DNA of 21,724 nt from Eubacteriales bacterium. Its GTDB lineage: Bacteria; Bacillota; Clostridia; Peptostreptococcales; Anaerovoracaceae. Each line of letters starts with the position of its first letter. The first letter of the stretch is position 1. The notes below the pieces were generated by a model that ran no database searches, was not told the DNA's origin, and was given only the letters and a program-made list of their open reading frames with translations. Position numbers and translations under genes: made by a program. This document shows, piece after piece, positions 6,868-21,724 of the stretch. The stretch covers positions 1 through 21,724 of the forward strand of contig JAQUYZ010000001.1 of the NCBI GenBank assembly GCA_028691625.1. The letters are read 5' to 3'.

Positions 6868-9800
6868 TTATTTTACCAATAGGTTGTACAGCACCTGTGC
6901 CATTTCCGCTCTGGTAGCTGTGCTCTCCACAGATAACTTATCGCCGATGCCGCTGATGATTCCTGCCTGTGCAAACAATTCCACCGCATCTTTTGCCCAG
7001 GAGTCTACCTGTCCCGCATCCTTGAAGCTTGAAAGAGTCTTTCCTCCTTCGCCTTCCGGCAACTCATCCGTTTGTTTCAGGGCATTGTACAGCAGGGCGA
7101 ACATTTCCTGTCTTGTGATTTTCTTAGCTGGTGCAAACATGCCATTGCCTACACCGTCGGATATACCGAGCCTTTTTGCCGCTGCCAGATAACCCGTAAA
7201 ATAGGTGTCTCCCGCATCCGCAAAGTTATCCTTCGGATTTGTATCAGGGGATATCTCATAAGCCCGCATCATCATTACAATAAATTCACTGCGGGTCAGT
7301 TTGGCTTCAGGGCTATAACACCCGTTCCCAGTGCCTGTGGAAATACCTCTTGCCGCTATAAATCCAACTGCTCTGCTATACCATATGGTTTCAGGCACAT
7401 CCTTGAAACTCACTTGGTTATATCCGATCCCATAATGGCTGAAATGAGTGATTGAGAAGCTTACGGTTTTGTCTGCGGGATGATATTGTCCGTTTGTAAC
7501 AGATGCTGCCTTTCCGCTGCCGTCAACATACCAGATCATGATGCTTTCAGGATTCTCAAGTTCTTCCTCTGAAGGAGCATATGGTATTTTTACTGTCACC
7601 GACGCATCCGGGTTGTTCCATTCTGTTTTCTCTCCGTCCATCGTGAATGTCAACTCGATCAACGGTCTGTCTCCGATTGCCTCCTTCACCTCACCGGGCA
7701 GGCTGGATTTGTCCCCTTTTCCAATGCTGATTCCAATCAGCCCGGCATCTTCCAATCCCGTGCCCTCCAGCATATTGCCGGGCAAGGTTACCGTTCCCGC
7801 TGCCGTTTCCAGTTCTATTTTCCTGTCCGGATTCTTCATGGCAAGCGCCGATGCCGGCAATTCCAGCACGTAATCATCCACTCCTTCCGCTTCCGGCATC
7901 TTGACGTTTACTGTTTTTGCCTCATCGCTGTCGATACCGTTCTCGCCGAAAGCTTCGTCCAGGGTGCTTGCATCCATCCTTGCTGATGCGACTCCCTTTT
8001 TTGTGTCAATCGTGATTGTTAGGCTTTCTCCATAGGCTCCTGCCGTCAGTTCCGCCGGAGCGCCGCTGTTGCTTGTCCTCTTTCTTCCTGAAGAATTGCT
8101 GGGAGGCGGAGGAAAAACAGTAAAAGCGTAACTGCTGATGCTCCCGATCACAGGATTTCCCATCCGTCCCGCATCCCGTCCATCGGTGGCAAAGGCATAC
8201 AGCACGTGTTCCCCCAGGGCCAACGCCTCACTGGTATAGCTTCCGCTGCTGCCGGAAGGCCTTGCTTTTTCCCACTCGCCTGTAAGAGAATCCACCCTGC
8301 ACCATATCTGCTGTACGGCAGGCGCTGCTGGTCCGGACATGCGTTCAGCCGAAAGCTGAAAGGAGGGGGTCGCGTCCCGGGTGATGTTTCCGGCCAGAGG
8401 GGCAATTGAAGTTTCCATGATCCCGGATGGAACGGCATGATCGGAAATAACCGTTACGGTATCGCTTTCACGATTGGGGACATAGACTTTGCAGGTGGTG
8501 GGGCTTGCCGCCACTGCAAAAGGTTCCGTTCCTGCACCTACTGTTTCAGTGGTATTGGTGGCTCCGTCGATCACGGTAACATTGTTGCCGCCTCCATTGG
8601 CTACGTAGATTTTATTGTTGGCAGTGTTCACGGCCACTGCGCAAGGACCGTCTCCTGTGTTTACTGTTTCAGTGGAGTTGTCGGCTCCGTTGATCACTGT
8701 AACAAAATCATCCCTGGTGGTCACATAGATTTTGTTGGTGACTGCGTTTACCGCCACTGCAGACGGTTCACAGCCGGTGCTCACTGATGTGGTAGCGTTG
8801 TCGGCCCCATCGATTACCGTTACATCGTCACTGTCAAAATTGACCACGTAGATTTTGTTGGTCACCGGGTTGATCGCCAATGCACGAGGCCGATCCCCTA
8901 CAGCGATTGCTGCTCCGGTACTATTGTCGGCGCCGTTGACCACGGAAACGGTATCACTTCCCTCATTGGCCACATAGATTTTATTGGTTACGGGGTTTAC
9001 CTCTACTGCGAGAGGTCCTTCTCCTACAGTGATTGCTGCTTCGGTACTGTTGTCGGCTCCGTTGATTACCGTTATGTTATTGCTTAAATAATTGGCCACA
9101 TAGATTTTATTGGTGACCGGGTTGACCGCTACTGCAAATGGGCCATCTCCTGCATCGACGATTTCGGTAGAATTGTCCGCGCCGTTGATCACCGTTACAT
9201 TGCCGCTAAAGGCATTGGCTGCGTAAATCTTATCCGTAACCGGGTTCACCGCCAATCCATATGGGCTATCTCCCGCAGCGACGGTTTCGGTGGTGCCTCC
9301 GGTATCGTCGATCACCGTGATACTGTTGTCAACCATGTTGGACACGTAGATTTTATTGGTCATCGGATTGACCGCCGCAGCGGAAGGAGCATCCCCGGCA
9401 GCGATCGTCTCGGTATGATTGCCGGCCCCGTCGATCACTGTTACACTGTTGCCTATATAATTGGCAATGTAGATTTTATTGGTCACCGGATTGACCGCCA
9501 CTGCATATGGATCATCCCCCACGCCAATTGTTGCCGCTGTGTTGTCGGCTCCGTCTATGACCGTTACACTATCGCTGTTACGATTGGTTACATAAATTTT
9601 GTTGACGAGTGGATTGACCGCCAAAGCATTCGGGGAATTTCCCACGTCGACCGTATCGGCAACAGTATCGTCGGCTCCGTCGATCACCGTGACGCTGCCG
9701 CTGTCACTGATACTTGCGGTACCTTGATTCACAACATAAATCTGGTTCGTGACCGGGTTCACCGCCACTGCACTGGGGGAATATCCCACATTGACTGTTC

Positions 9801-10563
9801 CGGTAACAGTATTGCTGGCTCCGTCGATTACCATTACGCTGCAGCCGACGCCTGATGCGCCTTGATTCGCTACGTAGATTTTATTGGTAACCGGGTTTAC
9901 CGCCAATGCAATCGGCCGATCCCCGACATTGACTGTCTCGGTTTGATTGGTGGCTCCGTCGATCACCGTGACACTGTTGTTTCTAATATTTCCAACATAG
10001 ATCTTGTTGGTTGCATGGTTTACCGCTAAAGGAGTGGGACCGTCGCCCACATCGATGGCTGCAGTGATCCTGTGATCGGCCCCGTCTAGCACAATGACAC
10101 GATCGCCGCCGTAGCTGGACACATAGATCTTGTTGGTAACCGTGTTGATGGCGAATTCATTGACATACATTCCCACATCGATTGTTTCAGGAGTGTTTGT
10201 TTCTCCGTCGATCACGGTTATGCTTTGGCCCATAACGTTGGCAACATAGACTTTATTGGCAGCCGGGTTCACCGCCGCTGCATTCGGCATCGACCCTACA
10301 GGAACTGTTTGAATTGTGTTGTCGTCCCCGTCTATCACTGTAACATTACTATCGTCCTTATTAACAGCATAGATCTTATTAGTGACCGGGTTCACCGCCA
10401 AAGCAGTTGGGCCGTTCCCTGTATCCACCGTTGTCGTTGCGGATTCAGCCCTTGCAGGCGTTATCCCAGGGAATATCGTAAACGCCATCACAAAAACCAT
10501 CATAAGAACGGGAATCCGCAGGATCCGTCTAGGCAATCCTTTCTTAGAAAATAATACAAACAT
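6868..10563 (-). CDS. Secreted YVTN beta-propeller repeat protein with three C-terminal SLH domains
   Basis: A 1231-residue surface protein. It begins with a signal peptide (RRILR, hydrophobic core, cleavage after ARA at residue 39). Residues 43 to about 715 are 16 tandem repeats of about 41 residues with the core AVNPVTNKIYVAN and VTVIDGADN, the YVTN type in which each repeat is one propeller blade. Next come an Ig-like segment (about 715-815, LGEHVLYAFATDG), a Pro/Ser linker, and a 230-residue beta-rich region common in clostridial SLH proteins (VKIPYAPSEEEL, ITHFSHYGIGY). Three SLH domains (about 1051-1231) follow, each with an FxD start and a TR(S/Q/A)E motif, for binding secondary cell-wall polymer. 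ATG 10563 has AGGAGG six bases upstream. The DUF2442 gene ends 27 bases before it. The likely role is a cell-wall-bound adhesin or scaffold; the ligand is unknown. Confidence 0.93.
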   Translation of the reverse strand: MFVLFSKKGLPRRILRIPVLMMVFVMAFTIFPGITPARAESATTTVDTGNGPTALAVNPVTNKIYAVNKDDSNVTVIDGDDNTIQTVPVGSMPNAAAVNPAANKVYVANVMGQSITVIDGETNTPETIDVGMYVNEFAINTVTNKIYVSSYGGDRVIVLDGADHRITAAIDVGDGPTPLAVNHATNKIYVGNIRNNSVTVIDGATNQTETVNVGDRPIALAVNPVTNKIYVANQGASGVGCSVMVIDGASNTVTGTVNVGYSPSAVAVNPVTNQIYVVNQGTASISDSGSVTVIDGADDTVADTVDVGNSPNALAVNPLVNKIYVTNRNSDSVTVIDGADNTAATIGVGDDPYAVAVNPVTNKIYIANYIGNSVTVIDGAGNHTETIAAGDAPSAAAVNPMTNKIYVSNMVDNSITVIDDTGGTTETVAAGDSPYGLAVNPVTDKIYAANAFSGNVTVINGADNSTEIVDAGDGPFAVAVNPVTNKIYVANYLSNNITVINGADNSTEAAITVGEGPLAVEVNPVTNKIYVANEGSDTVSVVNGADNSTGAAIAVGDRPRALAINPVTNKIYVVNFDSDDVTVIDGADNATTSVSTGCEPSAVAVNAVTNKIYVTTRDDFVTVINGADNSTETVNTGDGPCAVAVNTANNKIYVANGGGNNVTVIDGATNTTETVGAGTEPFAVAASPTTCKVYVPNRESDTVTVISDHAVPSGIMETSIAPLAGNITRDATPSFQLSAERMSGPAAPAVQQIWCRVDSLTGEWEKARPSGSSGSYTSEALALGEHVLYAFATDGRDAGRMGNPVIGSISSYAFTVFPPPPSNSSGRKRTSNSGAPAELTAGAYGESLTITIDTKKGVASARMDASTLDEAFGENGIDSDEAKTVNVKMPEAEGVDDYVLELPASALAMKNPDRKIELETAAGTVTLPGNMLEGTGLEDAGLIGISIGKGDKSSLPGEVKEAIGDRPLIELTFTMDGEKTEWNNPDASVTVKIPYAPSEEELENPESIMIWYVDGSGKAASVTNGQYHPADKTVSFSITHFSHYGIGYNQVSFKDVPETIWYSRAVGFIAARGISTGTGNGCYSPEAKLTRSEFIVMMMRAYEISPDTNPKDNFADAGDTYFTGYLAAAKRLGISDGVGNGMFAPAKKITRQEMFALLYNALKQTDELPEGEGGKTLSSFKDAGQVDSWAKDAVELFAQAGIISGIGDKLSVESTATRAEMAQVLYNLLVK
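8440..10440 (-). repeat. Sixteen tandem in-frame repeats of about 123 bp encoding YVTN blades
   Basis: Sixteen consecutive units encode the propeller. The most conserved DNA is the stretch for NPVTNKIYV (ATTTTATTGGTNACCGGGTT-like on the plus strand) and for VTVIDGADN. Units 5 and 6 carry short insertions, unit 14 is one residue short, and the last unit is degenerate (SPTTCKVYVPN). Identity between units is high enough for slippage or recombination to change copy number. Confidence 0.9.
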
Positions 10564-13732: not shown

Positions 13733-15739
13733 TTACACTCTTCTTGCTGCATGGAAACCCTCGTGAGTCGCTTGCATAATCTTCCGAGGCTTATTGACGT
13801 CTCCCACCGGAATGATTTCTACTCCCTTGCAGCCGGCGCGCAATTCTTCCAATATGCTGCGGCAGGATTTGAGACCCAGCGCACAAACGACAGAATCCGC
13901 TTTGAAGACAGCGTGATTGCCTTCAAAGTCACAGGAAACAGATTCACCGGTCATTTCCGTGATTTTATGGTTTCCTTTCACTTTGACGCCCAGCTCTGCA
14001 AGCTTCCCTTCCAGAACCCATTTCGAGAACACGGTCATATCCGGCGCGGCAGAAGACAACATATCCACCATCGTTACCTCTTTTCCCTGCTCCGCCAGGA
14101 ACATTGCCACTTCACAGCCGACAAGCCCCGCTCCGCATACGATTACCGTATCTCCTGTGCTTTCCTTGCTGTCAAGCACTTTGAGCGGGTCAAGGATTTT
14201 TGCGTCCTGCGCTCCCGGAATTGCGGGAATGTAAGTAGCCGCTCCGGAAGCGACGATAACCGTATCAAAGCCGCCCTGCCGAATGATCTCCGGCGTCGCT
14301 TCGGTACCCGTTTTGATGACAGCTCCGCAACGTTTCACCGCTTCAATCATTTGCTTCGTATAATCCTTGTAATCCTCTTTAAAATCAGGGATGGAGACAT
14401 AGTAGAGCGCCCCGCCAAGTTCGCTGTTCTTTTCAAAAAGAGTGACCTTATGCCCCCGCTCTGTTGCAGTCAGAGCAGCCTGCATGCCGGCAGGTCCTGC
14501 GCCTATGATTGCGATATTTTTTATTGTTTGAGCAGGTTTTACCGTCGTATATCCCTCATATTCTTTGCCTGCCTCCGGATTGATCGCGCAGGAGATTCCA
14601 CAGTTGCGCATGACATCTCCAAGACATTCGTTGCAGCGGAGACATCTTCGAATTTCATTCGCCTTCCCTTCCTTGATCTTGTTCGGATAGTCGGGATCTG
14701 CGATGGTCTGGCGACCGATGGCAATAAAATCTGCATTGTTTCCTTCCAGGATTTCCTCTCCCATTTCAGGAGAGATGCCGCATACGGCGATGACTGGGAT
14801 TGAAACGGCTTTTTTTACCGCCGCCGCCAAATGGATCATGGTGCCTCTTGGGGTATAGTTTGGGGGAACCCAAGTGGAAATCCCAACACCGTGACTCAGG
14901 CCCATGCCTTCAGCTGACTTGCCCTCGAGCATTACGCTAAAATATTTTTCCATTCTGGAATCCCAGGTGCCGGCAGAAACATTGATCGCATCGACGCCAG
15001 CCTCTTGTGCCATCTTTGCAAATTGACACGCATCCTCGATTGTCAGACCATCCGGTACATATTCTTCACCGGAAAGACGGTAAATAATATTGAGATCCGT
15101 CCCTACGTATTCCCTGATTTTTTTAATGATTTCCAACGGGAAACGTGCGCGGTTTTCAAGAGAACCGCCATACGCATCTTCCCGCCGGTTCGTATACGGG
15201 GAAAGAAATTGCAGCGGCATATAGCCGTGTGCTCCGTGGATTTCTACCGCATCAAAGCCGCAGTCTCTTGCTCTTCTTGCTGCTTGGGCATATTTATCCA
15301 CAAGCTCGTGAATCTGTTCTACTGTCATTGTCCTGGGATTTTCATCGGGCAGGAGCATCGTTCCCACTCCGGAAGGAGTCAGTGGCGGTTCTCCTGTAAC
15401 ATGTTCACTTGCGAAGCAGCCTCCGTGGGCAAGCTGCAGACACGCTTTCGCCCCGCCGGAATGGATCGCATGGGGGATTCTGCTGAGACCGGGCATGAAA
15501 TAATCATAGGTGGCCTCGATTTCTCCCGGGATGACTCTGCCCAGAGGATCAGGACAGCATACCTCTGTTATGATCATCCCCACTCCGCCATTGGCTCTTC
15601 TCGCATAATAGTTTACGATGACATCGGAAACCGTTCCGTCCGCAGCGGCAAGATTTGTTCCCATACCCGGCATGATCATACGGTTTCGAAGCTCCATGCT
15701 TCCGATCCTGCCCGGTTCTAATATTTTTTCATACTTCAT
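13733..15739 (-). CDS. NADH:flavin oxidoreductase, 2,4-dienoyl-CoA reductase/enoate reductase type (FMN, 4Fe-4S, FAD)
   Basis: A 668-residue three-domain flavoenzyme of the old-yellow-enzyme superfamily that reduces or oxidises activated C=C bonds (relatives are FadH, BaiCD/BaiH and enoate/cinnamate reductases). Residues 1-365 form the FMN TIM barrel, with VEIHGAHGYMPLQFLSPYTN and NRREDAYGGSLENRARFP typical of the active site and FMN region. An iron-sulfur Cys group follows (Cys366, 369, 372, 380, 384). The FAD domain has IIGAGPAG (411-418) and the NAD(P)H domain VCGAGLVGCE (534-543). ATG 15739 is chosen for its AGGAGG site; an in-frame start six codons earlier has none. It has its own promoter with a 20-bp palindrome and sits downstream of a PucR gene that is separately terminated. 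The substrate is not deducible. Confidence 0.92.
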   Translation of the reverse strand: MKYEKILEPGRIGSMELRNRMIMPGMGTNLAAADGTVSDVIVNYYARRANGGVGMIITEVCCPDPLGRVIPGEIEATYDYFMPGLSRIPHAIHSGGAKACLQLAHGGCFASEHVTGEPPLTPSGVGTMLLPDENPRTMTVEQIHELVDKYAQAARRARDCGFDAVEIHGAHGYMPLQFLSPYTNRREDAYGGSLENRARFPLEIIKKIREYVGTDLNIIYRLSGEEYVPDGLTIEDACQFAKMAQEAGVDAINVSAGTWDSRMEKYFSVMLEGKSAEGMGLSHGVGISTWVPPNYTPRGTMIHLAAAVKKAVSIPVIAVCGISPEMGEEILEGNNADFIAIGRQTIADPDYPNKIKEGKANEIRRCLRCNECLGDVMRNCGISCAINPEAGKEYEGYTTVKPAQTIKNIAIIGAGPAGMQAALTATERGHKVTLFEKNSELGGALYYVSIPDFKEDYKDYTKQMIEAVKRCGAVIKTGTEATPEIIRQGGFDTVIVASGAATYIPAIPGAQDAKILDPLKVLDSKESTGDTVIVCGAGLVGCEVAMFLAEQGKEVTMVDMLSSAAPDMTVFSKWVLEGKLAELGVKVKGNHKITEMTGESVSCDFEGNHAVFKADSVVCALGLKSCRSILEELRAGCKGVEIIPVGDVNKPRKIMQATHEGFHAARRV

Positions 15740-15757
15740 AATGCACCTCCTGAACAT

Positions 15758-15819: not shown

Positions 15820-15870
15820 AAAAAAATAAGCCGGCTTGATTGTGCAAATGAACAATCAAGCCGGCTTATT
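15820..15870 (-). terminator. Strong terminator of the PucR gene, containing its stop codon
   Basis: A perfect 19-bp stem (beginning AATAAGCCGGCTTGATTGT) with an 8-base loop is followed on the minus strand by a run of seven T. The PucR stop codon (15868-15866) is inside the first arm, so the hairpin begins within the gene's last codons. Confidence 0.9.
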
Positions 15871-17479
15871 CATACAGATCATGGGCCAAAATAGCAATAT
15901 GCAGATGAAGGCGGACCAGCGGATCATCAAAATCATCGTCAAGCAGACTGCGGACTTTGTTCAGGCGATAGTTGATCGTATTTCGATGGACAAAGAGCGC
16001 GGAAGCGGTTTGGGTCACGTTTTGATTGTTTTCAAAAAAGCTGCGCAGCGTATCGACATAAAGGCTCCCCGTGCTGGAATCCGCTTCAAGCAAAGTTTCC
16101 AAAGCCCTGCTTTTGAAGAAAAGCTTTTCCTCTGATTCGTACAATCTCGTAATCATATGATAGGGTACCATATTATGATACGAATACAACCGCTGTTTTC
16201 CGGGATTTTCTCTCAAAGATAAGGCATGGTTCATTGCGAGAACCTGTGAATAGCAGTTGCTGATCTGGGTCAGCTCTTCTGTAGGAAGACTCAATGTAAA
16301 AATGTAATGATTCTGTTGCGCCTGCTCCTGGAGGGCGGGATTCAGAATTTGTGCCCACGTGCTTTTCTCCCGGAAACTCAGGATAAAATATCCATAGGTT
16401 CCATCAAAGGCATAAAGGCAAAGGCTGCAATTTTTTTTGAGTATATAGGATAAATCCGGCAGTTCCCTCCCGATATAGCGATCCTTCTTATCCACGTAAA
16501 CACAAAGCACGGCATTCCATCTGGAAAAGGAGATTTGCAGACTTTTTGCTCTGGATAGAATCATTGCGCGGCTGGCCATATCGCCTTTCAGAATGTCCGT
16601 TGCAAAATCATTTCTCATTTGCCCCGTGGCTTTTGAAATGGCATCCTCTTCATTGAGCCTGGCGCTCAGCACCTCGGCCAGCATTTGTAGTATATATAAA
16701 TCGAGAGAAGTAATTTTGCGGTTTATTTCAAGCAGAGCAATATAGCCTTTCGTATTGGAACCGCTTTTCATTCTTGCTACGGCACGTTTGGTGCAGCCGC
16801 GAAAGGCGGTGTCGTCAACAAACAAGGGAAGGTTCGAATTATCAAGCCGCTTCCAGAACTGGTTGACATCGGTTTTGGAAACAAGCTCGGAAGGGCTGTA
16901 TTGATTTTTAATGATTTCTTCCCAGACCGGATCGGCTACACTATACTCCTGACTGTATGCAAGGACTGCAAAGGTCTCGTCGGTTATGATCATAGGGTTG
17001 TGAAGCAGCATGCTCCCGAATTTTTCGATTTCCCCAATCGTTGCACCTCTTGCCAGCAAGCTTACCAAATCAAGGTAATGCCTTTCTATCAATTCCCGCC
17101 GCCGTAGGTTTTGTGTTTCGATCTCCTGCATAATTCTGCAGTATATTTTATTCCTGTCCTCCGGTGGGGCTAAGATTGAAATGATGGTGCCGGAAAAGAA
17201 TGCGGCAGCCTCAGTGAGAAAGGAATCTAAAACCCTGTCGCCTATGATGACAAGCAACAGTTTTGATTCGGAGAGGATTGCCGGAGTCTTTGTGCAAAGA
17301 CAAAGATCCTCGTCTCCCATTAAGATGAGGCCATACCTGTGTGTTTTTTCGATGCAGAATTGTTGCGTTTCGATCCGAACCAGAAATTCCACAGCAAAAG
17401 GGTTCTCTTGAACTGCTCCGACACGATGCACGGTATAATCAATTTTAAGATTATGAAGCAGGATGTCTAAATCGATCAT
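15866..17479 (-). CDS. PucR/CdaR-family transcriptional regulator
   Basis: A 537-residue regulator. The N-terminal part has PucR-like features (residues up to about 130), the middle has the GGDEF-like CdaR domain (WNAVLCVYVDKKDR onward), and the C-terminus has the PucR helix-turn-helix, FFENNQNVTQTASALFVHRN followed by TINYRLNKVRSLL. ATG 17479 is chosen because GGAGAG lies six bases upstream; ATG 17500 has no ribosome site. Family members are usually activators that sense metabolites (purines, sugar acids, proline). Here it lies between, and points toward, the flavoprotein gene, and is divergent from a sigma-54 activator, so it likely controls one or both. The effector is unknown. Confidence 0.92.
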   Translation of the reverse strand: MIDLDILLHNLKIDYTVHRVGAVQENPFAVEFLVRIETQQFCIEKTHRYGLILMGDEDLCLCTKTPAILSESKLLLVIIGDRVLDSFLTEAAAFFSGTIISILAPPEDRNKIYCRIMQEIETQNLRRRELIERHYLDLVSLLARGATIGEIEKFGSMLLHNPMIITDETFAVLAYSQEYSVADPVWEEIIKNQYSPSELVSKTDVNQFWKRLDNSNLPLFVDDTAFRGCTKRAVARMKSGSNTKGYIALLEINRKITSLDLYILQMLAEVLSARLNEEDAISKATGQMRNDFATDILKGDMASRAMILSRAKSLQISFSRWNAVLCVYVDKKDRYIGRELPDLSYILKKNCSLCLYAFDGTYGYFILSFREKSTWAQILNPALQEQAQQNHYIFTLSLPTEELTQISNCYSQVLAMNHALSLRENPGKQRLYSYHNMVPYHMITRLYESEEKLFFKSRALETLLEADSSTGSLYVDTLRSFFENNQNVTQTASALFVHRNTINYRLNKVRSLLDDDFDDPLVRLHLHIAILAHDLYE

Positions 17480-17541
17480 GCGAATCTCTCCAACTTCCAT
17501 TTTCGTTTTATTTTAAATTTTATTGATGAATTCTTCATAAA

Positions 17542-17627: not shown

Positions 17628-19268
17628 ATGAAGGAGTATCAGAATATCTGGGAATGCTTTGTACAAGATATGGAGTTTGATCACAAGCTTATAAAAAAGG
17701 ATATCCTTGACTCTTGGCGGCGATGCAAGGAATATGGCGTTTCTCTTTATGGCTTTGATATCGACCTGCTGATGAAGCCTGAAGAGAAATACCGTTATGT
17801 GCTGAAATACCTTCCCGAATACAAGAACCCCCCGTATCGGGAATTCTGCACGATTGTTGAAAATGTGAATTTTAACATCAGTGTGTATGATCATAACGCA
17901 AAACTGGTGTATATTGTGAATTATGATGATACTTTTGATCAATTGTATCCACAGATCGGCTATTTTCTGGATGTCTCTGAATCGAAAATCGGGACGAATT
18001 CCACCTGCCTTGCGCTTATGGAAAACAAACCCTTTATGGTGATCGGGCCTGACCACTATAAGTACGTTTATCATCGTTTCAGCTGTGCGGCCGCACCCTT
18101 TTATGACAATAATAACGAAATTGCCGGAACGATAAACGCTTCCTTTATCAATACCGCAATAAACAACGATACCTTGAATATTATATACAGCCTGGCCAGA
18201 CTCTATGAAACATTGATTTTAAAAAGGCAGGCTTCCGTACAATCTAAAAGTCAGCAAGGAAAAAAGAAGGGGCAAGGTCAGGATTTTTATACCTTTCACA
18301 GTATCCTGGGACAGTCGGAAGAAATAAACCAAGCAAAAAAATTAGCGATGAAAGCGTCGGGAGTGGATGCCTCTATTCTAATCTACGGCGAAAGCGGCTG
18401 TGGGAAAGAGGTATTTGCACAAGCCATCCATCATGAAAGCCCCAGGAGGAAAAATCCCTTTGTAGCCATTAATTGCGGCGCGATCCCCAAGGATCTGGTT
18501 GAAAGTGAATTGTTTGGTTATGAAGCCGGCGCTTTCACCGGAGCGGTAAGCAGCGGCAAGAAGGTACTGCTGGAATATGCCTCCGGAGGCACTGTGTTTT
18601 TTGATGAGATAGAAAACATGCCCTTGCCTGCCCAGGTTAAAATATTAAGAGCCTTGTCCTCCTCAACGATAATGAGGATCGGCGGCAACGAACCAATTCC
18701 AATCAACATCAGGGTAATTGCAGCGTCTAAAAAGGATCTGGAGGAGGAAATCAAAAGAGGCAGTTTCAGAGAGGATTTGTTCTACCGCATCAATGTAATC
18801 CAGGTGAATATCCCGCCCCTCAGAGAAAGAAAAGAAGATATTAATCCAATTCTGGAACATTATGTTAAAACATTTTCAGATAAAAACAAAATTAAAATCG
18901 AACGAATCGAAGAGGAATTCATCAGATGTCTTGAGGCCTACCATTGGCCCGGCAACATAAGGGAATTGATCAACATTATTGAGCGTTCTCTGGTGCTGTC
19001 GGAAAACGGTACGATTGATAGCTCTGCGCTTCCTTCCGGAATAAAAGAAAGCTATCTAAAGTCAAAATTGAAACAGAGCCTCACCTGCGATTTGAAAGAG
19101 GCGCTGTCCGGAGAGAAGACCCTGCTGCAGCTTGCAGAGGATGCTGTCATTCAAAGCATATACAAGGAGGAACAGTGCAATTTGACAAAAACAGCAAAGC
19201 GGCTTGGACTTTCAAGGCCTACGCTCTATAAGCGGATAAAGAAACTGGACATGCCACGCTGTAAATAA
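17628..19268 (+). CDS. Sigma-54-dependent transcriptional activator, AcoR-like (GAF, AAA+, Fis HTH)
   Basis: A 546-residue enhancer-binding protein. The N-terminal sensor (about 1-200) resembles the AcoR GAF domain: SKIGTNSTCLALMENKP, then the GPDHY and FSCAAAPFYD segments. The AAA+ domain has Walker A GESGCGKE (254-261), an intact GAFTGA sigma-54 contact loop (301-306), Walker B TVFFDEIEN (322-330) and REDLFYRIN. The C-terminus has a Fis-type helix-turn-helix (TKTAKRLGLSRPTLYKRIKK). ATG 17628 follows GAGGAGG by eight bases. It ends just before a -24/-12 promoter, so its target is almost certainly the tautomerase-hydrolase operon immediately downstream. Being AcoR-like, it probably senses a small metabolite rather than phosphorylation, since no receiver domain is present. 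Confidence 0.95.
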   Translation: MKEYQNIWECFVQDMEFDHKLIKKDILDSWRRCKEYGVSLYGFDIDLLMKPEEKYRYVLKYLPEYKNPPYREFCTIVENVNFNISVYDHNAKLVYIVNYDDTFDQLYPQIGYFLDVSESKIGTNSTCLALMENKPFMVIGPDHYKYVYHRFSCAAAPFYDNNNEIAGTINASFINTAINNDTLNIIYSLARLYETLILKRQASVQSKSQQGKKKGQGQDFYTFHSILGQSEEINQAKKLAMKASGVDASILIYGESGCGKEVFAQAIHHESPRRKNPFVAINCGAIPKDLVESELFGYEAGAFTGAVSSGKKVLLEYASGGTVFFDEIENMPLPAQVKILRALSSSTIMRIGGNEPIPINIRVIAASKKDLEEEIKRGSFREDLFYRINVIQVNIPPLRERKEDINPILEHYVKTFSDKNKIKIERIEEEFIRCLEAYHWPGNIRELINIIERSLVLSENGTIDSSALPSGIKESYLKSKLKQSLTCDLKEALSGEKTLLQLAEDAVIQSIYKEEQCNLTKTAKRLGLSRPTLYKRIKKLDMPRCK

Positions 19269-19280
19269 TTTTTACATAAT

Positions 19281-19317
19281 AAAAAGTTGTAAATGATATT
19301 TACAGCTTTTTTTGTTT
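19281..19317 (+). terminator. Rho-independent terminator of the sigma-54 activator gene
   Basis: A 14-bp stem with one G-T pair (AAAAAGTTGTAAAT with ATTTACAGCTTTTT) and a 3-base loop, followed by a T-rich tail. The core TGTAAAT-GAT-ATTTACA is itself a palindrome centred about 98 bases upstream of the inferred sigma-54 start site and could also serve as an activator site. Confidence 0.85.
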
Positions 19318-19367: not shown

Positions 19368-19383
19368 TGGCAAGCAACTTGCA
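19368..19383 (+). promoter_or_regulatory. Sigma-54 (-24/-12) promoter
   Basis: TGGCAAGCAACTTGCA matches the sigma-54 consensus TGGCACG-N4-TTGCA at all but one fixed position, with the exact GG-to-GC spacing. The start site is expected near 19394, with the ribosome site immediately after. It lies about 100 bases downstream of an intact GAFTGA activator gene, which makes the call firm. Confidence 0.92.
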
Positions 19384-19406
19384 ATAATGTAGGGAGAGGT
19401 GATTCT

Positions 19407-19745
19407 ATGCCGTTCATTGTGATCAGAACAAAAAAGCCAAATTGCAGGTATGATATCAAGGGTTTCGGTCAGGAACTTTCAGCGAAGATGAAAATTGATA
19501 TCAGGCGGATCAATATCATTATGGATTATTTTGACGAATCGGATGCCTTTTTCGGCAGTGAATCCGACAGCCTGATTATCACACTGAATCTCTCCGAAAC
19601 CAACACGCTTGATTTTAAGAGGCAGTTGATTCAGACTACGGCAACGCTCTCGGAAAAATATTTCTATAAAGAAAAAAAGAGCATAGCGGTGATCTGCAAT
19701 TTGATCAAGGAAGGGCACATGTTTCTTGATAATAATTTTAAATAG
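19407..19745 (+). CDS. Tautomerase-superfamily-like protein (DUF1904-like), function unassigned
   Basis: A 112-residue protein beginning MPFIVIRTK, so that removal of Met would expose Pro1, the catalytic base of the tautomerase superfamily. Apparent secondary structure is beta-alpha-beta twice, as in MIF/5-carboxymethyl-2-hydroxymuconate isomerase-sized members: strand MPFIVIRT, helix GFGQELSAKMKI, strand INIIMDYFD; strand SLIITLNLS, helix FKRQLIQTTATLSEKY, strand SIAVICNLI. The end KEGHMFLDNNF resembles the closing motif of DUF1904 proteins. A GAGAGGTG site precedes ATG 19407. It is the first gene of the sigma-54 operon, 11 bases ahead of the hydrolase. The fold assignment is by eye; it could also be a non-enzymatic relative. 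Confidence 0.62.
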   Translation: MPFIVIRTKKPNCRYDIKGFGQELSAKMKIDIRRINIIMDYFDESDAFFGSESDSLIITLNLSETNTLDFKRQLIQTTATLSEKYFYKEKKSIAVICNLIKEGHMFLDNNFK

Positions 19746-19756
19746 GAGGGGCAAAA

Positions 19757-20473
19757 ATGAGTAAAATTGTATTAATCCACGGCGCATGGCACAACGGACG
19801 CTGTTGGGACGGGGTTTCAAACTTGCTGAAAAAAGCCGGGTATGAAGTGGAAGCCTTGACGCTTCCGGGAAATGGCGAAGGGGACAGTAAGGATGTTTCC
19901 TATGAAGACTATGTGAATTATATTGCAAAGTCATTAAACGCGCAAAAGGATAAGGTCATTGTCGTTGCACACTCCAGTGCAGGCCATGTGACACAAATGG
20001 CAGTTCCAAAAGCCAAGGACAAGGTGGAAAAAATTATATTCAATAATGCCTGGATCTTGCCTGACGGAAAATCACAGTTTGACTTTGTCCCGGAAGAAAT
20101 TAAATCACAGATGAGAAAGATGGCAGTAGAAAGCGGTACCGGTGCAATTCCCATCGATCCCGGCTTCGTCAGAGGAATGCTGGCGACGCAGGCGGATGAG
20201 GAACAGTTTAAAAAATTGATGGATCTTCTGGTGACTCAGCCTCTGGTGATCATGGAGACCCCTGTAGATGCAAAGGCTTTTCAGGATCTGTCAATCCCGC
20301 TGGTTCTGCTCTATTGTACGAAGGACATGTCCGTCCCCCCTGGTGCATTTCTTGGAATGTTCAAGTCTCTGGGGGATAATCCGGTGGTTGAAGTGGAATG
20401 TGACCATGAAGGATTGTTTACAAATCCCGAAGCATATACCGAGGGGCTTGTTAAATGCATTGAAATGCATTAA
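19757..20473 (+). CDS. Alpha/beta-hydrolase (EstC/plant methylesterase-like)
   Basis: A 238-residue soluble hydrolase. It opens with the family signature IVLIHGAWHNGRCWDGV (oxyanion HG), then LTLPGNGEGDS, the nucleophile elbow VVAHSSAG with Ser73, the acid in CTKDMSVP (Asp190) and the His in CDHEGLFTNPE (His217). The layout matches the EstC/salicylate-methylesterase/hydroxynitrile-lyase group. The usual GHSxGG elbow is AHSSAG, with both flanking glycines replaced by Ala. A TAGGAGGGG site overlaps the upstream stop codon, so it is tightly coupled to the tautomerase-like gene under sigma-54 control. The likely reaction is ester or lactone hydrolysis or a C-C cleavage; the substrate is unknown. 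Confidence 0.88.
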   Translation: MSKIVLIHGAWHNGRCWDGVSNLLKKAGYEVEALTLPGNGEGDSKDVSYEDYVNYIAKSLNAQKDKVIVVAHSSAGHVTQMAVPKAKDKVEKIIFNNAWILPDGKSQFDFVPEEIKSQMRKMAVESGTGAIPIDPGFVRGMLATQADEEQFKKLMDLLVTQPLVIMETPVDAKAFQDLSIPLVLLYCTKDMSVPPGAFLGMFKSLGDNPVVEVECDHEGLFTNPEAYTEGLVKCIEMH

Positions 20474-20531: not shown

Positions 20532-20562
20532 GGCTGCCGGCTATCCGCCAGTAGCCTTTTTT
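20532..20562 (+). terminator. Rho-independent terminator of the tautomerase-hydrolase operon
   Basis: A 10-bp stem with one mismatch and one G-T pair (GGCTGCCGGC with GCCAGTAGCC), a 5-base loop, then TTTTTT. It separates the sigma-54 operon from the MFS gene. Confidence 0.85.
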
Positions 20563-20605: not shown

Positions 20606-20634
20606 TTGAAAACAGTGATTCCCTATGATATAAT
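20606..20634 (+). promoter_or_regulatory. Promoter of the MFS transporter gene
   Basis: TTGAAA (20606-20611), a 17-base spacer and consensus TATAAT (20629-20634) form a strong sigma-70-type promoter. The transporter is thus expressed independently of the preceding sigma-54 operon. The leader is about 30 bases. Confidence 0.8.
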
Positions 20635-20669: not shown

Positions 20670-21724
20670 ATGACTGGATTATTAAGAAAATTCCGGAGCG
20701 ATCGGGACTTTAATCTTTTCTTAGTTGCGGGCCTGTTCGCCGGGATCGGGGCCGGCATTTATGCCTCAATATTTAACAACTACTTAAGCGATGTTTTCAA
20801 ACTGTCCGAAGAACTCAGAGGTTTCCTTGAGGTGCCGAGAGAGGCACCAGGCTTAATGATCATAATAGTTCTTGCGGTATTAAGCTTTATCGGTGATGTG
20901 CGGATCGCGATGCTCGGCATGGCGGCCGCGGGGCTGGGGATGCTCGGTCTCGGCCTGCTTTCTCCGACTTTTTCGATTATGATCATCTGGATGATGATGT
21001 ACAGCCTCGGAACACATATTCTTCTTCCCATTACACCATCCATCGGAATGTCCCTTTCCAATAGAAACGCTTTCGGAGCCAGGCTTGGAACGATAAGCGC
21101 TTTCGGTCTGCTCGGAAGTATCATCGCGTACACTTATATCCTTTTGGGGTTTCATTTCATGCAAATGAGCTATCAGACCGCATTTGTCACCGGCACCGTT
21201 TCCTATGTGCTGGCCGCTCTTGCAGTGGGCATGATGAAAAAGGGAGAACCGGAGACTCGAAAAGTAAAATTTGTTTTCAGAAGACGCTACTTGCTTTTTT
21301 ATGCACTGTCTGTCATCAGCGGCGCTAGAAATCAGATTTTTATGACGTTTGCCCCTTGGGTGCTGATCAAGGTTTTCGATGTGAGGCCTCAGATGTTTGC
21401 GATCCTGGGCATGATCATTGCCTTTGTCAGTATCGGCACTCGGAAATTGGTCGGTAAATTGATTGACAGCCGAGGCGAGCAGTTTGTCCTGACAGCGGAA
21501 GCGATTCTGCTCTTTGTTATCTGTCTCGGATATGCGTTCTCAGAAAGGATTTTCTCCGCCGGAATCGCCGTAGTGATCATTACCGGCTGTTATGTCATCG
21601 ATAACTCCATGTCCGTAGTCGAAATGGCGCGTTCTACCTATGTACGGAAAATTGCCGTCAATCTTGCCGACGTGACTCCAACGCTGTCTACGGGCATCAG
21701 TCTGCAGCACATCGCCTCAATGGT
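20670..21724 (+). CDS. MFS transporter, partial at C-terminus
   Basis: The frame is open for 351 codons to the window edge. The product is very hydrophobic, with about nine or ten apparent membrane segments, for example LFLVAGLFAGIGAGIYASIF, LMIIIVLAVLSFIG, AMLGMAAAGLGMLGLGLL and TISAFGLLGSIIAYTYILLG. A charged cytoplasmic loop (MKKGEPETRKVKFVFRRR) falls where the two six-helix halves meet. The stretch GTRKLVGKLIDSRGEQ resembles the MFS loop between helices 8 and 9. ATG 20670 follows an in-frame TAA directly and has no clear ribosome site. A five-codon mini-ORF (20652-20669) in the same frame ends on that TAA, so re-initiation is possible. Substrate and direction of transport are unknown; about 50 residues are probably missing. 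Confidence 0.88.
   Translation, partial: MTGLLRKFRSDRDFNLFLVAGLFAGIGAGIYASIFNNYLSDVFKLSEELRGFLEVPREAPGLMIIIVLAVLSFIGDVRIAMLGMAAAGLGMLGLGLLSPTFSIMIIWMMMYSLGTHILLPITPSIGMSLSNRNAFGARLGTISAFGLLGSIIAYTYILLGFHFMQMSYQTAFVTGTVSYVLAALAVGMMKKGEPETRKVKFVFRRRYLLFYALSVISGARNQIFMTFAPWVLIKVFDVRPQMFAILGMIIAFVSIGTRKLVGKLIDSRGEQFVLTAEAILLFVICLGYAFSERIFSAGIAVVIITGCYVIDNSMSVVEMARSTYVRKIAVNLADVTPTLSTGISLQHIASM

Follow-up and report, generated by a model that had tools for sequence, protein, structure and literature searches.

A probable single-target sigma-54 regulon of a tautomerase-like protein and an alpha/beta-hydrolase in Eubacteriales

What is the role of two small genes that follow a sigma-54 activator in the genome of an Eubacteriales bacterium (family Anaerovoracaceae)? 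The stretch analysed, here called the window, comprises 21,724 nucleotides of contig JAQUYZ010000001.1 (C389 in our set, from a genome that is 74% complete), and the genes in question encode an activator (ACT), a tautomerase-like protein (TAUT) and an alpha/beta-hydrolase (HYD). Judging from sequence comparison, we consider it very likely that ACT, a tandem pair of palindromes, and the two-gene TAUT-HYD operon with its -24/-12 promoter, set at a nearly constant distance, constitute a self-contained sigma-54 regulon with a single target. The parts of this unit are:

17628..19268, + strand: ACT, a predicted sigma-54 activator with a DhaR-related sensor region, an AAA+ domain and a Fis-type helix-turn-helix (from PF00158, PF02954 and a sensor profile)
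19260..19276, + strand: palindrome copy 1, TGTAAATAATTTTTACA, an exact match to TGTAAANNNNNTTTACA that overlaps the ACT stop codon; candidate activator site
19288..19304, + strand: palindrome copy 2, TGTAAATGATATTTACA, 28 bases past copy 1 and an exact TGTAAA-N5-TTTACA
19368-19383, + strand: predicted -24/-12 promoter TGGCAAGCAACTTGCA (TGGCAAG-N4-TTGCA), 39 bases before the TAUT start codon
19407..19745, + strand: TAUT, a 112-residue putative tautomerase-superfamily protein with a Met-Pro start (from fold matches, the proline and a distant counterpart)
19757..20473, + strand: HYD, a 238-residue predicted SABP2/methylesterase-type alpha/beta-hydrolase (PF12697) with Ser73-Asp190-His217

ACT and TAUT are 138 bases apart, and TAUT and HYD 11 bases.

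The pairing of the two small genes is constant. In every one of the 14 genomes whose loci were read (G000, G015, G329, G079, G112, G114, G140, G268, G356, G901, G987, G1046, G929 and G940), TAUT is the gene immediately before HYD, and each HYD is at least 50% identical to that of the window; 13 genomes were found through HYD and G015 through TAUT only. These genomes are not independent, several being from one genus or family, and about 120 HYD relatives are known as proteins alone. ACT is directly upstream of TAUT in 11 of the 14: in the window, in eight genomes at 64–80% identity (the G329 contig holds only its last 160 residues) and in two at a distant 31–33% (G929 and G940). It is not found there in G268 and G1046, and in G356 a 445-residue protein occupies its place. 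The preliminary description of this DNA had named, as what would refute it, a lack of conservation of the operon near a GAFTGA-type activator; it withstands this test, since activator and promoter accompany TAUT-HYD in these 11 genomes. The gene for sigma-54 itself, rpoN (PF04552), is present in 11 of the 14 genomes (10 of the 11 that bear ACT, and G1046) and was not found in G268 or G356. In a distant version of the unit (L049:7659-10905 and L050:598-3914), the activator is 31–33%, the tautomerase-like protein 16–17% and the hydrolase 50–51% identical to those of the window, and the promoter is much further from the start codon. One TAUT-HYD pair (L048:6236-7301) is placed amid unrelated genes with neither the activator nor a -24/-12 promoter, in a genome that has rpoN.

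The promoter is the sole site in the window with no more than one mismatch to TGGCAYRNNNNTTGCW. Sites with up to two mismatches are common: there are 18 in all where 12.1 are expected, and a count of 18 is reached in 4 of 100 shuffles, so that on its own the motif is not convincing. All 11 loci that bear ACT carry TGGC-N7-TTGC, in which GG and GC are 10 bases apart, in the ACT-TAUT gap. Counted to the TAUT start codon, it starts 39–41 bases upstream in the nine loci with a close ACT (including the window); in the two distant loci the figures are 124 and 133. Of 2000 shuffles of the window's ACT-TAUT intergenic stretch, 0.6% contain this pattern, and shuffles made locus by locus contain it in 0.05–1%. 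A near-consensus promoter just past the activator, driving the two small genes, had been proposed beforehand, and this recurrence bears the proposal out.

The palindromes are an addition to that description, which did not mention them. The promoter-proximal TGTAAA-N5-TTTACA is exact in eight of the nine loci with a close ACT, 119–123 bases before the start codon; in the ninth, L047, it has one mismatch and stands at 130 bases. The second copy, 27–28 bases further upstream, is present without mismatch in L004, L006, L017, L018 and the window, has one mismatch in L047 and was not found by exact search in L005, L007 and L008. The tandem palindromes are probably the ACT binding sites. TGTAAA-N5-TTTACA is missing from this place in both distant loci: L049 has TGTTCCCATCTGGAACA instead, and in L050 a single TGTAAAACATTTTTACA lies 376 bases upstream. 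Ten genomes (G987, G929, G940 and G1046 were not among them) were searched for a palindrome followed after 55–85 bases by TGGCA-N6-TTGCA. Each of the eight that bear ACT gave exactly one match, G268 and G356 gave none, and a reversed-pattern control gave 0. One match per genome is expected by construction, since the pattern was read from such loci; the informative outcome is that no second target appeared in the eight ACT-bearing genomes.

ACT has the parts of a sigma-54 activator: the sigma-54 interaction domain (PF00158, 215.6 bits), a C-terminal Fis-type helix-turn-helix (PF02954, 28.0 bits with a cut-off of 22), a Walker A motif (GESGCGKE) and, as previously noted, an intact GAFTGA loop. 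Among the ten activators that are readable over this loop, GAFTGA is found in six (window, L005, L007, L008, L047 and L049) and GSFTGA in four (L006, L017, L018 and L050); the L004 activator was left out of this count, as its contig ends before the motif. The N-terminal region, where members of the AcoR/DhaR subgroup have a GAF-type sensor, has no Pfam match. As a single sequence it reaches only E 0.09 against DhaR, and as a profile of nine sequences it matches DhaR (4lrx) with E 9.5e-6. The earlier label "AcoR-like" is thus upheld as far as a sensor region related to DhaR, and no further.

TAUT is assigned by fold. Its profile, searched by sequence against solved structures, gave chance matches only (best E 0.072), and the fold was therefore predicted: it has the strand-helix-strand repeat of the tautomerase superfamily, and the fold matches listed are 5–19% identical. 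A proline directly after the start Met is invariant in 14 of 14 aligned members and is also present in L047, L049 and L050; in L048, TAUT begins TTG-Pro. The window's TAUT matches no family in Pfam or NCBIfam, and the 14 aligned members reach at best E 0.051 against the Tautomerase model. The distant counterpart in L049 passes the PF01361 cut-off (23.9, with 22 required), that in L050 is under it (12.8), and the TAUT profile aligns collinearly with the L049/L050 profile (E 3.8e-6, probability 87%). Predicted fold, proline and distant counterpart together place TAUT in the tautomerase superfamily; "tautomerase-like" was thus an apt name by predicted fold, though the Pfam and NCBIfam models do not detect the protein. 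One relative, P0136, carries the name PptA in its source, which is no evidence of activity on arylpyruvates.

HYD, also named correctly beforehand, belongs to PF12697 and has the fold of an SABP2-type serine esterase over its full length, with an intact Ser73-Asp190-His217 triad at aligned positions. Hydroxynitrile lyases have a Thr in the oxyanion region and a Lys following the catalytic His. Invariant Gly9 and Glu218 occupy these positions in HYD, and a hydroxynitrile lyase was rejected. The two fold classes raise another reading, in which TAUT would bring a vinylogous diketone into its keto form, the C-C bond of which HYD would hydrolyse. In aerobic breakdown of aromatic compounds, 4-oxalocrotonate tautomerase (4-OT) and the hydrolases of ring-fission products carry out such steps, and the L049 counterpart aligns with 4-OT and fused 4-OT. 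A meta-cleavage-like pair of this kind is nonetheless improbable: HYD is closest to the SABP2/methylesterase group, and no ring-cleavage gene was noticed in the flanks (by eye; family-library scans covered part of the open reading frames).

How the parts might act together can be proposed as follows. With its DhaR-related sensor region, ACT would detect a small metabolite; it would bind the candidate TGTAAA-N5-TTTACA sites that start about 80–110 bases upstream of the promoter, and drive transcription of TAUT and HYD by sigma-54 polymerase. For TAUT, with its N-terminal proline as acid/base, the proposed reaction is keto-enol conversion, in either direction, of an unsaturated or 2-oxo acid. 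HYD, as a Ser-Asp-His esterase, would act on that compound or on one linked to it, splitting an ester, a thioester or an activated C-C bond. The unit would process one metabolite, perhaps an arylpyruvate enol or an aryl ester. Judged from the folds, cleavage of an ester or lactone and keto-enol isomerisation, two of the steps suggested beforehand, are plausible. As an overall explanation, the regulon together with processing of a metabolite is the one we favour, with reasonable rather than strong confidence.

The same pair could serve for clearance, removing a reactive by-product or foreign compound (an enol ester, lactone or aryl ester) with no energy-yielding step. A patchy distribution fits such a role, HYD having been found in 8 of the 391 genomes sampled from the class. 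A second class draw gave it in 7 of 383 (the same genomes minus G000) and a phylum sample in 2 of 398 (the window's own genome and one at 26% identity). One family gave 2 of 32 genomes, two orders gave 2 of 33 and 2 of 6 (all four already in our set), and the order of Alkaliphilus peptidifermentans gave 6 of 335, one of them only 26% identical. TAUT is rare as well. A single-sequence search of a database of 5.8 billion matched 11 non-redundant proteins, that of the window included, and the 14-member profile matched 37; TAUT was found in 2 of 61 relatives (the window's own genome included), and a scan of genome contigs gave five loci, in G329, G112 (Lutispora thermophila), G079, G015 and G901 (A. 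peptidifermentans). A plasmid search with HYD returned 163 records, all below 60% identity (27–31% among 15 of the 163 listed). No TAUT or ACT was seen in the stretches of about 3.7 kb that carry two outgroup hydrolases (L022 and L046, 26% identity). Clearance is also consistent with a unit that has no transporter, dehydrogenase or CoA enzyme and whose flanks vary between genera (by eye), and with the nearest solved structures of HYD, which are esterases such as SABP2 and a pyrethroid hydrolase. On the other side, HYD is strongly conserved (68–89% identical to that of the window in 11 of the 13 other genomes, 50–52% in two), which suggests a fixed physiological substrate, and in one genus the pair stands beside a cluster of Ior genes. 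We regard clearance as a serious possibility, short of an even chance.

The Ior cluster offers a clue to the substrate. In G268 and G356, which are of one genus, the gene order is TAUT-HYD-Ptb-IorA-IorB-Buk (L020:1236-8283 and L019:2468-8805). Family scans of G268 support IorA (726 bits, cut-off 650.9), IorB (274.7, cut-off 230) and Buk (379.6, cut-off 289.1); its Ptb protein falls in PF01515 and under the phosphate-butyryltransferase cut-off. The four proteins of G356 are 84–92% identical to these. Oriented divergently from TAUT in both genomes is the gene of the 445-residue protein (truncated in L019, where the contig stops), which has no Pfam or NCBIfam match and is possibly a new type of regulator. 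SABP2-type esterases use aryl esters. This activity, the tautomerase fold and the Ior-Ptb-Buk context would together point to an arylpyruvate or aryl ester from fermentation of aromatic amino acids, which is the weakest step in the argument, and we name this substrate class only tentatively. Rather unlikely, and more specific, is that TAUT-HYD forms an unrecognised side branch of this fermentation for arylpyruvate enols or esters not accepted by the Ior-Ptb-Buk route. Most lineages would then keep the pair under a sigma-54 activator of its own, and in the genus with no detectable sigma-54 it would have come under another regulator beside the Ior cluster. The window has no Ior, Ptb or Buk gene adjacent to TAUT-HYD; its genome has homologues of Ptb, IorA, IorB and Buk on contigs C386 (L040) and C391 (L039), 43–72% identical, with IorA in two pieces at contig ends and IclR-like and HisC-like genes nearby (by eye).

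Several observations weigh against the regulon and metabolite-processing interpretation. For the switch, G140 (93% complete) has ACT and the promoter and no rpoN was found in it, and G1046 has rpoN and no ACT. In most loci a T run comes after the promoter-proximal palindrome, whose outer bases differ between loci yet pair in several (by eye); the palindrome may therefore double as a terminator for ACT, and could in part be just that. For TAUT, model confidence is moderate (pLDDT, the predicted local distance difference test, 76.9). The substrate arginines of 4-OT are Arg11 and Arg39, columns without a reliable mapping to the window's TAUT; in the L049 counterpart, the C-terminal half has Lys and Asn there. 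The arylpyruvate link comes from one genus (2 of the 14 genomes): homologues of Ior, Ptb and Buk occur in 0 of the 12 other TAUT-HYD loci, including all 11 with ACT (of which three are on contigs of only some 4 kb), and within that genus about 86 bases and a hairpin (by eye) separate HYD from Ptb, which weakens the case for co-transcription of the two. The functions of ACT, TAUT and HYD are themselves predicted from sequence and fold comparison.

Other features of the window lie around the unit:

13733-15757, - strand: old yellow enzyme (OYE)-type flavoprotein, downstream of the PucR regulator on the same strand
15866-17500, - strand: PucR regulator
20539..20556, + strand: terminator-like hairpin with a T run, between HYD and the next gene (weak: 1 found, 1.2 expected by chance)
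20606-20634: sigma-70-like promoter before the MFS gene, 11/12 matches
20670-21724, + strand: major facilitator superfamily (MFS) transporter, off the contig end

The sigma-70-like promoter and the weak hairpin suggest that the MFS transporter is a unit separate from TAUT-HYD. On the other side of the activator, the flavoprotein and the PucR regulator are both present as described, and their genes adjoin the three others in this window. From this a five-gene inducible pathway had been proposed, in which hydrolase, tautomerase and ene-reductase would act sequentially on an unsaturated or lactone compound. Neither flavoenzyme nor PucR is found in any of the 13 other loci (tblastn, E 1e-10; the L004, L007 and L050 contigs are only about 4 kb), and both genes are on the strand opposite to ACT-TAUT-HYD and point away from it. 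The sole match to the ene-reductase-like open reading frame is in Lutispora (L005/L021), where 113 residues within a far longer protein align at 33%. The top NCBIfam models of the flavoprotein (BaiCD, mycofactocin OYE and bilirubin reductase) are all well under cut-off. With the two genes absent elsewhere, the pathway falls, together with its C=C reduction step: it is largely refuted and very improbable, and both genes were dropped as members. Clustering of all five genes is not conserved; only TAUT-HYD (14/14) and ACT (11/14) recur. Further upstream, positions 6868-10563 on the - strand encode a 1231-residue protein with beta-propeller matches (Lactonase, YNCE) and S-layer homology domains at its C-terminus.

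The unit appears genuine and, to date, without a published description. No description of the TAUT-HYD pair was found in the open-licence literature searched, which does not prove its absence in print; this agrees with the earlier remark that the gene set was not recognised as a described pathway. What appears new is one more sigma-54 regulon of the dedicated kind, with a first gene from a tautomerase family outside the models tried (Pfam and NCBIfam). The regulons known in anaerobic fermenters would grow by one, and the tautomerases by a family invisible to these profile libraries. Because the unit is small (one switch and two soluble enzymes), its substrate would be directly testable in cultured Lutispora thermophila and Alkaliphilus peptidifermentans.

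Among known systems, TAUT resembles the tautomerase superfamily (4-OT, fused 4-OT, cis-CaaD and MIF) in its predicted repeat and in the proline after the initiator Met, and differs in matching no library model and in that the 4-OT substrate arginines are not evident. HYD shares its whole-length fold and triad alignment with SABP2-type esterases (Paenibacillus 6tj2, tobacco SABP2 and MES16), but is at most 26% identical to them and has an invariant Glu where SABP2 has a Met after the catalytic His. Ior with Ptb and Buk homologues is described as part of the clostridial route of aromatic amino-acid oxidation (PMC13285125); Ior, phosphotransacylase and kinase genes, as in its oxidative branch (HpdDEFG-HpdJ-HpdK), also stand beside TAUT-HYD in the two relatives of one genus, and the words "tautomer" and "hydrolase" do not occur in the main text of that paper. 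The reconstructed sigma-54 regulons of Clostridiales, with 39 activator groups (PMC6615313), likewise combine an enhancer-binding protein, a DNA motif and a sigma-54 promoter. Their targets are fermentation and amino-acid genes, the ZypR group controlling tyrB-iorAB-butK. Table 1 of that study has no tautomerase/hydrolase target, and the two-gene unit under ACT would be a further group.
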